DNA of 64,000 bases, from positions 62,001 through 126,000 of the forward strand of contig CAIRYK010000087.1 in assembly GCA_903882805.1 (NCBI GenBank), given 5' to 3'. Shown here in pieces: positions 1,864 to 30,552 of the stretch; the first letter of the stretch is position 1, and the number at the start of each line of letters is the position of its first letter. Both the position numbers and the translations under genes were made by a program. The notes beneath the pieces were generated by a model. The model had not been told where the DNA came from. It did not search any database and saw only the letters and a program-made list of their open reading frames with translations. The stretch comes from an uncultured Bacteroidota bacterium. GTDB taxonomy: Bacteria > Bacteroidota > Bacteroidia > Chitinophagales > Chitinophagaceae.

Positions 1864-2859
1864 TTATCCTACCAATCCAAGCTGTTTACTCAAAGATAAC
1901 ATACGGTCTATGGGTATTTTGGCTGCAATCCGGAGTTCTTCGTCCATCAATATTTCAGGTAGTTCGTACTTCATACACAGGTACAATTTCTCCAAAGTGT
2001 TTAATTTCATGTGCGGACAGTCGTTGCAGGCGCAGGCATTATTTGGCGGAGCGGCTATGAATGTTTTATGCGGAGCATTCTTCTGCATCTGATGCAGTAT
2101 GCCAGCCTCTGTAGCTACAATAAATGTATCTGCCGCGTTTGTCTCCGAATATTTAAGTAGTTGTGTTGTGGAACCAATGAAATCGGCTATTGCCAATACT
2201 GCCTCTTCACACTCGGGATGGGCAATAAACTTAGCCTGTGGATAACGGCTCTTCAACTTGGTTATCTTCTCGAGCGAAAATATCTCGTGCACCATACACG
2301 CACCGTTCCACAACACCATGTTGCGGCCGGTTTGCTTGTTGATGTATCCGCCCAGGTTCTTATCGGGCGCAAAGATTATTTTTTGGTCGGCAGGCAGACT
2401 CTCTACAATGAGCTGTGCATTGCTCGACGTACAAATAATATCGCTCAGCGCCTTTATTCCTGCCGAACAGTTGATATAAGAAATTACCAGATGGTCGGGA
2501 TGCTTGTCTTTGAATGCTTTAAAAAGCGGCGGCGGACAACTATCGCTAAGACTACAACCTGCGCGCAAATCGGGCAGTAATACTTTTTTGTGTGGATTGA
2601 GGATCTTAGCCGTCTCGGCCATGAAGTGTACGCCGGCAAATACAATTATCTCAGCATCAGTTTGTGCAGCCTTTTGTGCAAGACCCAGACTATCGCCTAT
2701 ATAGTCGGCCACATCTTGTATATCCGGCTCCTGGTAGTAGTGCGCCAGTACAATTGCCTTCTTTTCCTTTTTTAGCTTCTTTATTTCTTCAAACAGATCC
2801 AGCGTGGGGTCTATTGCAACATCTAAAAATCCTTTCTCATTTATTTGTTCGGTAATCAT
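1864..2859 (-). CDS. nadA: Quinolinate synthase A
   Basis: NadA condenses iminoaspartate with dihydroxyacetone phosphate to form quinolinate, the first committed product of de novo NAD synthesis from aspartate. It is a cytoplasmic [4Fe-4S] enzyme. The 331-residue product has the family hallmarks: [20 protein letters not shown] near residues 39-58, [16 protein letters not shown] with Cys102, WNGACMVHE with Cys188, and [10 protein letters not shown] near 275-284 supplying the third cluster cysteine. The spacing of about 86 residues between cluster cysteines fits the three-domain fold. The ATG at 2859 leaves a normal N-terminal extension. The gene runs leftward, away from the origin-like region. 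nadB and nadC are not in the window. Confidence 0.97.
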
Positions 2860-2952
2860 CTTCTGGTGTTATTTATATATAAATTAAATAAAACATTGAT
2901 AAAGCAGACCTTTTTTTCTAAATATTTCCGGCAAAAACTTAAACCACAGCGC

Positions 2953-3700
2953 TTATCCACATTCCTAATAATAGCTTTTAAAGTTTTTAAAACAAATACC
3001 TATTACTATTAGCAGTGGGGATATGGGGAATAAAAAGTGAAAGAGCTATTGCAAAATTAGAACTTTAGGTTTACTAACAGTTTACTACTGGGTTATTAAC
3101 ATAAAAATAGACCACTAAACGATAGCGAACCAACGAAAACGTGGAATTGTTGATAAACCGGACTGTTAGAAAATAACACAACGTTAATATCAGGACAACT
3201 TGTGGACAACGGATTTTGATGTGGGATAACTTTTGTGGATAACGCCCTCAGAAAAAGTTATTCCTGAAACCCGTTTGTTTATACAGGCGTTTTTACCGGT
3301 TATCCACACCGTTTTGGAATAACTAATCTGGTAGAATATGATTGATTATTAATGGGTTGTGGTGTTTTTGCAGCCGTAGTATAGTATTAACAGCGCTATG
3401 ACTGGTAAATAGTTTTCTTAGATTGCAAGCAGTCTATTATTAGCATATAGCTACACTGCTAGTATAACCACCAACCTGCAATTAACTGATATTATATAGA
3501 TGTAGTAGCTCAGGTTATTTGTGTGGATAAATAAATTATAGGCATTCCGGTAATTGCCCGATTAGATAAAGTAAACAAGCTGTGGAGGAGGTCTAAAAGG
3601 CAGCAGAAAAAATAAATACCGCTAAAAACACTACTGGCTTAATAAAAAATGACCAATTTTAGATGCAAATAGGAAAATAAAAGTGAGAATCTGTTGATAA
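2953..3700. other. Candidate replication origin (DnaA-box cluster)
   Basis: This 900-bp gap between the divergent genes nadA and ppiD has no coding potential and is AT-rich. It contains four exact TTATCCACA DnaA boxes: 2953-2961 (+), 3234-3242 (-), 3300-3308 (+) and 3522-3530 (-). Three more sites differ by one base: 3148-3156 (TGTTGATAA), 3201-3209 (TGTGGACAA) and 3692-3700 (TGTTGATAA). By chance, about 0.007 exact boxes would be expected in a stretch this long, counting both strands. Flanking genes point outward, as at bidirectional origins. dnaA is not adjacent, which is common in Bacteroidota. The melting region is not pinpointed. Inferred from sequence only. Confidence 0.75.
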
Positions 3701-3766
3701 CTGTGTGAAATCTCATTATTTCCCATAAATTTGCCGTCCTTAATATAATAAATAATAAAACCTGCA

Positions 3767-5962
3767 ATGTCTGTAATACAAACTATCAGAAATAAGTATG
3801 GGAAAATAGCCGGCGGTATAATAGCCGTTGCTCTCGTTGGCTTTATAATTTCTGACGCCTTCAATGGTTCCTTTGGTAATTTTTTCAGAGGAAGGGATTC
3901 CAACGTAATGAAAGTAGATGGGATTAAAATTGAACCCAGAGAATATCAGGACAGGGTAAAAGAATACGAGACATTGTACGCAATGTTTAATAAGACCCGC
4001 AATCTGGATGAAGCTACCCGCGCACAAATGAGCGAGCAGGTAATACAGATGATTGTGTATGAAAACGTGGTGGGCGAGCAGTGCGACAAACTGGGTATCA
4101 CTACCAGCGAAGAAGAGAAAAAAGAAATGATATATGGCGCCAATCCCGATCCACTGATTCGTCAGTTTCAGATCGATGGTCAGCAGATATTCATCAATCC
4201 GCAAACAAATCAGTTCGATCCACAGATTGTGAAGTGGATGGAAAAACAACTGGACGAAGAGCCGCAGAAAACAGACCCTACCGGAAAAATACGCGAGCAG
4301 TGGGAAACTGTGAAAGCATATGTGAAACGCATGAGCCGCGTTAATAAGTTCAACTCGCTCTATGCAGGTTCGTCTTATGTGCCTATGTATATGATGAAGC
4401 GTATGGCTGCCGACCAAAACTCTATGGCTTCTATCAAGTATGTAAAAATACCTTTCTCTACTGTTCCGGATGCAGAAGTAAAAGTATCTGAAGAAGAAGT
4501 GAAAGCATACATGCAGAAACATGCTGCACAGTACACCAACGATCAGCCTACAAGAACTATTGAATATGTGTCTTTCGACATTCTTCCTTCTTCTGCCGAT
4601 ACTGCCCGCGCTATAGAAGCCCTGGAAGCAATAAAAGCAGATTTGACCAATACTACTAAAGATTACAAAACTTTCGTAAATAATAAGTCGGACGAGGTTA
4701 ACTCTTACAGCGAAGCTTTCCTGAACAAAAGAACATTCATGTCACGCTATGCTGATACCATTATGGGTATGGCAGTAGGATCGATCTACGGACCTTATTA
4801 CGAAAACGGCGGTTACAGACTTACCAAAGTAACAGATCGCAAAACATTGCCAGACTCAGTGAAAATGAGACACATACTGGTGATGACAAAATCGCAGGGT
4901 AAAGAAATAATGAGCGATACGCTTGCCAAAATGAAACTGGATAGCGCTATGACTGCTATAAAAGCAGGCGGCAAATTTGATTCTGTAGTAAATGTATTCA
5001 GCATGGATGAGCAGAGCAAGAAAAACGGCGGCGAATACACGTTCACATTGCAGCAGCGCGTAACCGTATCTAAAGAACTGGGCGACTATATTTTCGATGG
5101 TAAAGCCGGCGACAAAGGCATAGTGAAAGTAAGTAACGACAACTACTCTGGCTACCACTATGTAGAAGTAATAGAGCAGAAAGGTATAGCGCCAAGCATT
5201 CAGTTGGCTACCGTAACCAAGTTGCTTGCTCCAAGCGATAGCACAGTAAATGCTATATATGGTAAAGCAAATGAGTTTGCAGGTAAAAACCAGACAGTCG
5301 CAGAATTTGACGCTACAGTTAAGAAACTTAACCTCGATCGCCGTATAGGTGAAAATGTAAAAGTGAATAGCTTTAGCATTGGCGGCCTGGGCGCAGCTCG
5401 CGAAATAGTAAAATGGATGTACGATCATAAAGTAGGCGATATATCTGCTGTGTTCCAGTTGGGCGACCAGAGATATGTGGTAGCCAAACTTGCTGGTACA
5501 CAGGAAGCAGGTATCATGCCGCTTACGGCTGCAAACCGCCCAATGCTGGAGCAGAAAGTAAGAGAAGAAAAGAAAGCAGAAGTACTTGCTAAGAAATTTG
5601 CAGGTCAGTCATCGCTCGACGCTATTGCACAGGCTGCTAATGTAACCGTACAGGCTGCAGACACAGTAATGATGGGTGGCGGTTTTGTAGCAAATCTGGG
5701 TTACGAGCCTAAAGTTGTAGGTTATGTATTCAATAAAACTTTCCAGCCAAACACTGTTTCTCCTGCAATTAAAGGTCAGGGCGGCGTGTACTTCGTAACA
5801 GTGGGCAACCGCGTTATGAACCCAATTGGTCAGGAAATGATGCCAATGCTTGCTCAGCAGCGCGGAATGCAGGAAAATCAGATGAGAAATCAGATTAGCC
5901 AGTCATTACAGCAAACGCTTACCAAGAAAGCAAAAGTGGAATACAACCATGCTAACTTCTAA
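3767..5962 (+). CDS. PpiD-like membrane-anchored peptidylprolyl isomerase (SurA N-terminal and parvulin domains)
   Basis: This is a periplasmic folding factor for exported proteins, anchored in the inner membrane. The 731-residue protein starts with a short cytoplasmic stretch and one membrane helix at about residues 13-31, followed by a SurA_N-like helical domain with the opening VDGIKIEPREYQ. A parvulin-type rotamase domain starts near residue 364 with KMRHILVMT and continues through GGKFDSVVNVFSMD and KNGGEYTF. A second degenerate PPIase-like region follows. The length is close to PpiD of other Bacteroidota (about 700). A TAAATTTG -7-like element lies at 3726-3733, 34 bp before the ATG. 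A strong terminator follows. Confidence 0.92.
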   Translation: MSVIQTIRNKYGKIAGGIIAVALVGFIISDAFNGSFGNFFRGRDSNVMKVDGIKIEPREYQDRVKEYETLYAMFNKTRNLDEATRAQMSEQVIQMIVYENVVGEQCDKLGITTSEEEKKEMIYGANPDPLIRQFQIDGQQIFINPQTNQFDPQIVKWMEKQLDEEPQKTDPTGKIREQWETVKAYVKRMSRVNKFNSLYAGSSYVPMYMMKRMAADQNSMASIKYVKIPFSTVPDAEVKVSEEEVKAYMQKHAAQYTNDQPTRTIEYVSFDILPSSADTARAIEALEAIKADLTNTTKDYKTFVNNKSDEVNSYSEAFLNKRTFMSRYADTIMGMAVGSIYGPYYENGGYRLTKVTDRKTLPDSVKMRHILVMTKSQGKEIMSDTLAKMKLDSAMTAIKAGGKFDSVVNVFSMDEQSKKNGGEYTFTLQQRVTVSKELGDYIFDGKAGDKGIVKVSNDNYSGYHYVEVIEQKGIAPSIQLATVTKLLAPSDSTVNAIYGKANEFAGKNQTVAEFDATVKKLNLDRRIGENVKVNSFSIGGLGAAREIVKWMYDHKVGDISAVFQLGDQRYVVAKLAGTQEAGIMPLTAANRPMLEQKVREEKKAEVLAKKFAGQSSLDAIAQAANVTVQAADTVMMGGGFVANLGYEPKVVGYVFNKTFQPNTVSPAIKGQGGVYFVTVGNRVMNPIGQEMMPMLAQQRGMQENQMRNQISQSLQQTLTKKAKVEYNHANF

Positions 5963-28749: not shown

Positions 28750-30552
28750 ATGCTTAAAAAAGCGCTTTCTTCCGCTGCCGTGATATTAAGTATTGCCAAC
28801 GCACACGCCCAAACTACATTTCTGCCATTGGGATCGGAGGACTACAGAGTACTCGACAGGCTGGAGACGCTGTCGGGCAGGCTGTGCGACAGTATAGTAA
28901 GCGGCGACAAACCAGAGTCGAGAAGGAACGCAGTGCATTTTCTGGAATACCTGAAAAATAAAAATACCTTCTGTACAGATCCATCGGTGGTGGTAACAAT
29001 AGATAGTTCGGCCCCACGGGCAGAGTATAGCAAAATAGACCGCTACAACCTGGACCAAATGATATCTGAAAGCGGAGAATGGACGCTAAAAGGCGATGGC
29101 GCTATAGATTCTAAGAAAGCCTGGTTCAAGCGGTTTTACCAAAAGCAGTACAACTTCTTTTATATAAAAACAGAAGACTTTGTGCTGGATAAAGACTTTT
29201 TTCTTGTAGTGAACCCCGTTACGAACAACATAGCGAGCATGCAGCAAAACAGTCCCAATCCGGCTGGGATAAATAAAACCACCTTTTTCAGCAGCAGGGG
29301 TGCAGAGGTGCGCCTGTGGATAAGCAAAAAAGTGGGCTTCTACTCGTGCTTTACCGACAACCAGGAGCAGTTTCCGTATTTTGTAAACAACTCGGTATCT
29401 AAAAAGCTGCAGGCTGTGCCCGGCGCCGACTATTTTAAGAACCCTACCAAGCCAACAGGCCAATATGACTATATGCAGGCCAGCGGCTATATGAACTTCG
29501 ATCTGGTAAAAGATCACCTGAATATCACCTTTGGATCGGGCAAGCATTTTATAGGCGATGGTTTTACCAGCCTGCTGCTCACCGACAATTCATCTAATAT
29601 GCCGTTTTTGCAAATGCAGATGCGTATATGGAAGCTGAACTACGAAGCCCTGACGCTGGAGCTGATGCCACAGTATACCAAAGACAAAGATCAGGTGCTG
29701 CCCAAGAAATACAGCTCTATACACTACCTGACCATAAACGCTACGCGCTGGCTGAACATTGGCTTGTTTGAAGCCGAGGTGTTCTCGCGCTCGAATCAGT
29801 TTGAGCTGTCTTACCTCAATCCGTTTATTGTTACTACTACCATAAACCGCTACAATGGCGCCGGCGACAAATCGCTGCTGGGCTTTAGCGGCAAGGCTAT
29901 AATACTGAAGCGGATGCAACTGTATGGTCAGTTTATACTCAACGAGTTCAGGATAGGCGAGCTAACGAGCAATAAGGGCTGGTATGGTAATAAATATGGC
30001 ATACAGGTGGGCGGAAAATACTTTGATGCGGCAGGAATAAGGAACCTGGATCTGCAGGCCGAGGTGAATGCAGTGCGCCCCTATACCTACAGCTCGCAAG
30101 ACACCTTTGCCAACTACACCAACTACAACCAACCAATGGCCGACCCGCTGGGCGCGGGCTTCATTAAAACCATTGGCGAGGTACGCTACCAGCCCATGAA
30201 AAACCTATACCTCACGCTGAGAGCCACCTACTACACGCAGGGCGCCGATACAGGCAATAGAAACTTTGGCAACAATGTGTTTAAAAACTATACAACTGCC
30301 GCAAGTACTTATGGCGTGAGCATGGTAAACGGACCGAAGAATACCTGCAAGATTGTGAACCTGAACGTATCGTATCAGGTGCGCCGCAATATATTCCTCG
30401 ATCTCGGCGGCACCTACCGCAACTACTCGAGCAATGCAGGCATATATCCCGAATACACCACCAATGGACCGGTAACCAGCGCGCTGACCACCACCTATTT
30501 CTACTTTGGACTAAGGGTAAACGCGGCGCGTAGAAATTACGATTTGTTTTAA
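28750..30552 (+). CDS. Outer-membrane beta-barrel protein, Wzi/RemB-like
   Basis: 600 residues with a signal peptide (MLKKALSSAAVILSIANAHAQ). After an alpha-helical N-terminal third comes a long series of amphipathic strands ending in an aromatic-rich C-terminus (TYFYFGLRVNAARRNYDLF), typical of a barrel. The motif FGSGKHFIGDGFTSLLLTD (about 258-276) and the repeated strand pattern are like the capsule-assembly protein Wzi and the gliding-motility protein RemB of Bacteroidota. Whether this organism glides or makes a capsule cannot be told here. A polytopic membrane-protein gene follows 34 bp downstream. Confidence 0.65.
   Translation: MLKKALSSAAVILSIANAHAQTTFLPLGSEDYRVLDRLETLSGRLCDSIVSGDKPESRRNAVHFLEYLKNKNTFCTDPSVVVTIDSSAPRAEYSKIDRYNLDQMISESGEWTLKGDGAIDSKKAWFKRFYQKQYNFFYIKTEDFVLDKDFFLVVNPVTNNIASMQQNSPNPAGINKTTFFSSRGAEVRLWISKKVGFYSCFTDNQEQFPYFVNNSVSKKLQAVPGADYFKNPTKPTGQYDYMQASGYMNFDLVKDHLNITFGSGKHFIGDGFTSLLLTDNSSNMPFLQMQMRIWKLNYEALTLELMPQYTKDKDQVLPKKYSSIHYLTINATRWLNIGLFEAEVFSRSNQFELSYLNPFIVTTTINRYNGAGDKSLLGFSGKAIILKRMQLYGQFILNEFRIGELTSNKGWYGNKYGIQVGGKYFDAAGIRNLDLQAEVNAVRPYTYSSQDTFANYTNYNQPMADPLGAGFIKTIGEVRYQPMKNLYLTLRATYYTQGADTGNRNFGNNVFKNYTTAASTYGVSMVNGPKNTCKIVNLNVSYQVRRNIFLDLGGTYRNYSSNAGIYPEYTTNGPVTSALTTTYFYFGLRVNAARRNYDLF

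Follow-up and report, generated by a model that had tools for sequence, protein, structure and literature searches.

A conserved DnaA-box locus upstream of nadA is a probable chromosomal origin in Chitinophagaceae

Background

Does a gap between two divergent genes, with dnaA nowhere beside it, hold the chromosomal origin of a Chitinophagaceae bacterium? Most tools and annotators seek oriC at dnaA. The DNA analysed here (the window) is a stretch of 64,000 nucleotides, G000:C87:62001-126000, from a draft genome of 95 contigs, and a preliminary description of it had called the gap between nadA and a ppiD-like gene a probable chromosomal origin. This proposal is supported by a cluster of DnaA boxes, by a conserved core and by a switch in strand composition in the closed genome of a relative, Chitinophaga sp. 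E66. Judging from sequence comparison, we put at about 90 % the probability that the nadA-ppiD gap holds oriC, with opening driven by DnaA and bidirectional replication. For the genome itself the origin is well supported through its relatives, whose behaviour it presumably shares.

DnaA boxes cluster locally in the nadA-ppiD gap

Scanning the window recovered, in both orientations, all seven boxes given in the preliminary description, four exact copies of TTATCCACA and three copies with one mismatch (Table 1). They lie, as had been stated, in AT-rich intergenic DNA (33 % G+C in the gap compared to 47 % in the window), and domain matches agree with a leftward nadA and a rightward ppiD-like gene on either side; a search of the latter gene against NCBIfam gave no match. 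One count has to be amended: the exact box at 29315-29323 had been taken for the only other one in the window, and a second is present at 2237-2245, within nadA.

Among the box counts, the excess is confined to this local cluster. Across the window we found 21 boxes with at most one mismatch compared to a mean of 15.1 in shuffled sequences, and since at least 21 occurred in 11 of 100 shuffles a window-wide excess is unclear. Exact boxes are not in excess genome-wide (61, compared to 60 for a reversed control pattern). The local density is unusual, with four exact boxes in 578 bp where 0.007 are expected (Poisson probability about 1e-10 before correction for about 8,500 such windows).

The next densest cluster of exact boxes that we noticed is upstream of mraZ (3 boxes in 163 bp, G000:C3:1505-1667). 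Together with one box carrying one mismatch these occupy 165 bp before mraZ-rsmH-ftsL-ftsI, and possibly reflect control of the division cluster by DnaA (or MraZ). In E66, three exact boxes with a 72-bp spacing are found at 5625924-5626076, about 8.5 kb downstream of nadA.

Table 1 Features of the proposed origin and its flanks (window coordinates)
Feature	Position	Strand	Basis
nadA, quinolinate synthase; gene usually found next to the core across the family	1864..2859	-	TIGR00550 396 bits; PF02445
Proposed oriC, the AT-rich DNA that separates nadA from the divergent ppiD-like gene	2860..3766	.	G+C, box cluster, conservation in relatives
DnaA box, exact, part of the second (opposed) unit	2953..2961	+	box scan; position kept across genus alignment
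Core, match of profile R1 (G000:C87:64955-65039)	2955..3039	-	E 8.4e-18
Second unit, trio-like repeat TTC CTA ATA ATA as read on the strand of the box (the trios being on its complement)	2962..2973	+	meets strict BUS rule
AT-rich stretch separating the two units, candidate unwinding core	2974..2999	.	sequence
Trio-like repeat CTAATAGTAATAG, family-wide unit	3000..3012	-	in 23 genus sequences T and A hardly vary, with A/G at every third base
Box-like site ATATCCCCA, two mismatches, adjoining the trio-like repeat	3016..3024	-	BUS-rule scan
Weak box-like site TTATTCCCC, three mismatches, abutting the ATATCCCCA site	3025..3033	-	genus-conserved
DnaA box, one mismatch	3148..3156	-	box scan
DnaA box, one mismatch	3201..3209	-	box scan
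DnaA box, exact	3234..3242	-	box scan
DnaA box, exact	3300..3308	+	box scan
DnaA box, exact	3522..3530	-	box scan
DnaA box, one mismatch	3692..3700	-	box scan
ppiD-like SurA_N/rotamase protein, divergent to nadA	3767..5962	+	PF13623, PF13616

dnaA is distant from the site

That dnaA is not beside the site, as noted earlier, holds more widely. In this genome the gene, whose product has both the ATPase and the helix-turn-helix domain, is on another contig (G000:C94:25632-27032), and in 12 of 12 single-contig genomes it is 0.4-3 Mb away from the core described below (E66 being counted by its nadA locus). A denser cluster near dnaA had been named among the findings that would speak against an origin at nadA; the 20 kb around dnaA contain no DnaA-box cluster.

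The single-contig record G446:C1 starts at dnaA (position 25); its core, at 7.07 Mb of a total of 7.8 Mb, is separated from that gene by about 0.7 Mb of the circle. A small protein encoded on the minus strand beyond the window, at G000:C87:33489-33782, matches the DNA-binding end of DnaA only (E 4.9e-5), and similar ones are found in many genomes of the genus. The gene that does recur nearby is mnmG (gidA). Among loci with full flanks, 13 of the 16 Chitinophagaceae-like ones and all 13 from Sphingobacteriaceae have it no more than 10 kb from nadA, as do 10 of the 11 genus genomes whose flanks were examined; here it lies about 4.6 kb from the core, just beyond the window.

The gap contains a conserved core with a trinucleotide repeat

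An alignment of 23 upstream regions from the genus, made prior to any motif search, places the best-conserved stretch at about 70-190 bp from nadA. On the nadA strand the consensus reads TTTATTCCCC-aAtcCaCaC-cC-TAATArTArTAG, then an AT-rich stretch, then ACTATTAwTAGG-nn-TGTGGATAA, and corresponds to window positions 2953-3033. The key part of the locus is a core of about 90 bp (2953-3039) that goes beyond the boxes listed earlier and consists of box-like sites, a spacer, a TA-trinucleotide repeat and an AT-rich stretch, with 80 % A+T at 2962-3012. The T and A of the repeat are constant (six positions in 23/23 sequences, a further T in 22/23), with A and G about equally frequent as third base. 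Starting at the box-like sites, the strand opposite the repeat reads as a run of 3'-NAT-5' triplets. As a sequence pattern this fits the DnaA-trio rule, which the relevant part of PMC8287927 gives as 3'-NAN-5' with 3'-GAT-5' closest to the box. We abandoned a reading in which the trios point away from the AT-rich stretch, as it goes against that same rule.

We built a sequence-only profile, R1, from 45 cores (23 from the genus and 22 from the family) out of 102 upstream sequences. The 45 were picked by a word search requiring TAATA, so the selection itself accounts for part of the conservation of these letters in the R1 alignment; they are conserved likewise in the genus alignment, which was built without this word search. 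Plausible sites at L108, L115, L121, L127, L165 and L171 were omitted, and the remaining upstream sequences were left out as misplaced, of other lineages or absent. The core is the sole R1 site in its own genome at E ≤0.1.

These results bear on the possibility that replication starts elsewhere in this genome, such as at mraZ (G000:C3) or at dnaA (C94), and that the nadA site is an old origin. The boxes before mraZ and the flat skew of the contig itself (see below) would agree with this. Against it, both the mraZ and the dnaA site are without the core, dnaA is also without a box cluster, and a mean column identity of 74 % for the core across the genus is not expected of a decayed origin. We rejected both sites and consider an origin elsewhere extremely improbable.

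The core is single-copy and separable from nadA

One strong R1 site (E ≤2e-14) is present in 24 of 25 genus genomes, always upstream of nadA, with any additional matches at E 0.003 or worse. The exception, G016, has no core and is also without nadA and without a full ppiD match. Of 147 family genomes sampled, 137 have a core match (E ≤0.01), most of them with one listed; in the other 10 R1 found no core at this threshold. The comparison of the gap in relatives that had been suggested therefore shows boxes and the core of about 90 bp kept upstream of nadA, in the genus and in the family.

For box counts, loci were oriented to the gene strand. Clusters are located upstream of nadA in all 23 genus sequences examined, some of them thin (two one-mismatch boxes in G002, two boxes in G009), and upstream of ppiD only where nadA is the neighbour. 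Thus, within the genus the site travels with nadA and not with ppiD, which refines the preliminary description. At least three boxes (at most one mismatch) occur within 700 bp upstream of nadA in 23 of 29 Chitinophagaceae-like loci, with a mean of 4.2 boxes upstream compared to 0.37 per 700 bp downstream (20 loci). The gene divergent from nadA is usually ppiD in these loci and nadB in those of Sphingobacteriaceae. Most loci of Saprospiraceae, and most other distant ones, are without a cluster upstream of nadA.

One explanation for such company is that the locus is a regulatory leader of nadA (or ppiD), an operator or RNA switch in which the box-like words are incidental. In 119 of the 126 family genomes with both listed, the core precedes the nadA match by 3-146 bp (median 22) on the same strand, a position that such a leader would give. 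The remaining 7 have the core away from nadA, and in 9 family genomes the core is present and nadA was not found at E ≤1e-60, which argues that the core is not a nadA leader. Furthermore, an Rfam search of 2700-3900 gave no match up to E 1, whether to an NAD-related RNA switch or to any other known RNA leader, and strand composition switches at the locus in E66 (see below). We rejected the leader on the distribution of the core and hold it to be very improbable.

Six family genomes have nadA without a listed core, two of which (G376 and G389) had a weak core match. G439 has two sites with core and nadA (C118:61125 and C173:1798), reflecting either a duplication or a mixed bin.

In a sample of the class, R1 matched 22 of 295 genomes at E 0.001, 7 from the own family and 15 from others. 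In a raw tally of 11 of these 15, six sites are amid at least four boxes within 600 bp and one has none. The neighbours of the six, read by eye, are an acyl-CoA ligase, rpiB, or nadD/metK. The core-like sites of other Bacteroidota families (L296-L307), some in DnaA-box clusters, are beside genes other than nadA, and judging by their sequence they are likely the origins of those lineages.

Strand composition switches at the locus in a closed relative

The preliminary description had pointed to GC skew as a check, and the outcome is divided: a switch is present at the locus in closed E66 and none is seen in the draft contig itself. E66 (CP079103.1; L145, equal to G040) was sampled in 40 segments, each of 20 kb. 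When the chromosome is divided in two by third-position G-C asymmetry, the boundaries of the best division are at 5.59-5.65 Mb and 2.41-2.57 Mb. The nadA match starts at 5,617,392, with its antipode at 2.473 Mb. Signs are as expected in 32 of 40 samples, and the bootstrap offset of the switch is -67 to +133 kb. Raw skew agrees in 31 of 40 signs, with a marginally better rotation at 6.04-6.12 Mb.

Other genomes give a mixed profile. In closed G153, third-position asymmetry is weak (12/20 signs, permutation 0.21), and raw skew follows in 16/20 signs (0.0011) with its best rotation at 3.02-3.04 Mb compared to a core at 3.711 Mb. On the largest contig of G002 (37 samples, core at 0.733 Mb), asymmetry is negative in 13 of the 16 samples left of 0.62 Mb and positive in 8 of the 11 to the right of 0.88 Mb; the interval in between was picked post hoc from the data, is mixed and, up to about 100 kb from the core, has the sign reversed. 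Neither raw nor third-position skew switches at the site in the 167-kb contig itself, and the pooled flanks of 10 genus genomes have no switch. The flanks of 13 Sphingobacteriaceae show a sign change near the nadA upstream region, several bins being filled by genes of one strand only.

Box clusters are insufficient to define an origin, and this genome has a second one at mraZ. It is therefore conceivable that the gap is a locus for titration or reactivation of DnaA (datA- or DARS-like), or a promoter under DnaA control, with oriC elsewhere. The best-conserved part of the gap, however, is the trio-like repeat with its AT-rich stretch, the core is single-copy, and composition switches at this very locus in E66, all of which makes such a role highly improbable.

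Two facing units and how the proposed origin may open

According to the portion of PMC8287927 that gives the BUS rule, a BUS has a box with at most two mismatches, a spacer of at most 16 bp and at least three NAN trios. We used a stricter version (same box and spacer limits, at least four NTN on the box strand), and in this genome two units satisfy it, ATATCCCCA/CTG-CTA-ATA-GTA-ATA on the minus strand and the exact TTATCCACA/TTC-CTA-ATA-ATA on the plus strand. Under the strict rule the family-wide (forward) unit is found in 10/23 genus sequences, the second (reverse) unit in 17/23 and both in 9/23, compared to 18/22, 1/22 and 1/22 in other Chitinophagaceae. Dinucleotide shuffles gave 0.03-0.05 per unit and 0.00 for both. 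R1 also matches the opposite strand of the core (2952-3017, E 1.8e-5), as it does, coinciding with the core, in all 24 core-bearing genus genomes and, among the matches listed, in 12 further family genomes. As R1 was partly trained on those sequences, these matches reflect self-complementarity and are not an independent find. In sequence, the core conforms to the published BUS layout, to which the genus seems to add a second unit facing the first across the AT-rich stretch.

Most probably, DnaA would occupy the box cluster (2953-3700) and nucleate at the box-like sites bordering the AT-rich stretch. From there a DnaA filament would spread along a single strand of the TA-trinucleotide repeats (DnaA-trios), opening the AT-rich DNA, after which helicases would be loaded and replication would proceed in both directions. 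More speculatively, the two units may be convergent unwinding units on opposite strands, each the starting point of a filament of DnaA on the strand that carries it. Both strands would then be kept open and each would offer a platform for helicase loading; we regard this as doubtful. If true, the double unit would be a symmetric solution, encoded in sequence, for loading two helicases in bidirectional replication; PMC10201434 describes this step as unclear. Dual helicase loading would then be testable by mutating the two sides singly.

An origin at nadA would also mean that placement of oriC by dnaA in Chitinophagaceae errs by 0.4-3 Mb. The 90-bp profile locates the likely origin even in drafts. 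Such a position is needed when growth rates are estimated from sequencing depth, and when chromosomes are to be oriented. Through the TA-repeat pattern, the argument for an unwinding module of general occurrence would come to include a phylum for which we found little experimental origin work in the literature searched.

Comparison with known origins

The oriC of E. coli has its boxes beside an AT-rich unwinding region, as at the nadA site. The R1/13-mer layout of E. coli and the strand of the trios relative to the box in B. subtilis are the background of this comparison. The E. coli origin shares mnmG as a nearby gene (gene order from the part of PMC10225481 that concerns it); at the site described here the other neighbours are nadA and ppiD, the box layout is another and mioC was not seen.

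With the BUS of the B. subtilis oriC, as sections of PMC8287927 and PMC6669920 describe it, the core shares boxes, a short spacer, trinucleotides on one strand with a constant middle adenine, and adjoining AT-rich DNA. It differs in the first base of the trios, often a pyrimidine, in the second, facing unit on the opposite strand in this genus, and in the distance to dnaA.

Closest in phylogeny are the predicted oriC of Prevotella intermedia chromosome I and the Bacteroidetes oriCs of DoriC, treated in part of PMC4755523, which share the phylum, a box cluster at a GC-skew transition and a dnaA-distant location. Box clusters of this kind in Bacteroidetes are thus already known, and adjacency to dnaA is no requirement in that account. 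Compared to what that source gives in the relevant portion, the gene neighbours, the core and the trio-like repeat are described here only. BUS elements are held to be widespread in the cited part of PMC8287927, and given both points an oriC at nadA with a family-wide BUS-like core would be in keeping with what is known. Among the papers that our searches listed, none that we saw treats an origin beside nadA or an opposed double BUS. The less expected part of the locus is this opposed double unit, in the genus and in some of its relatives.
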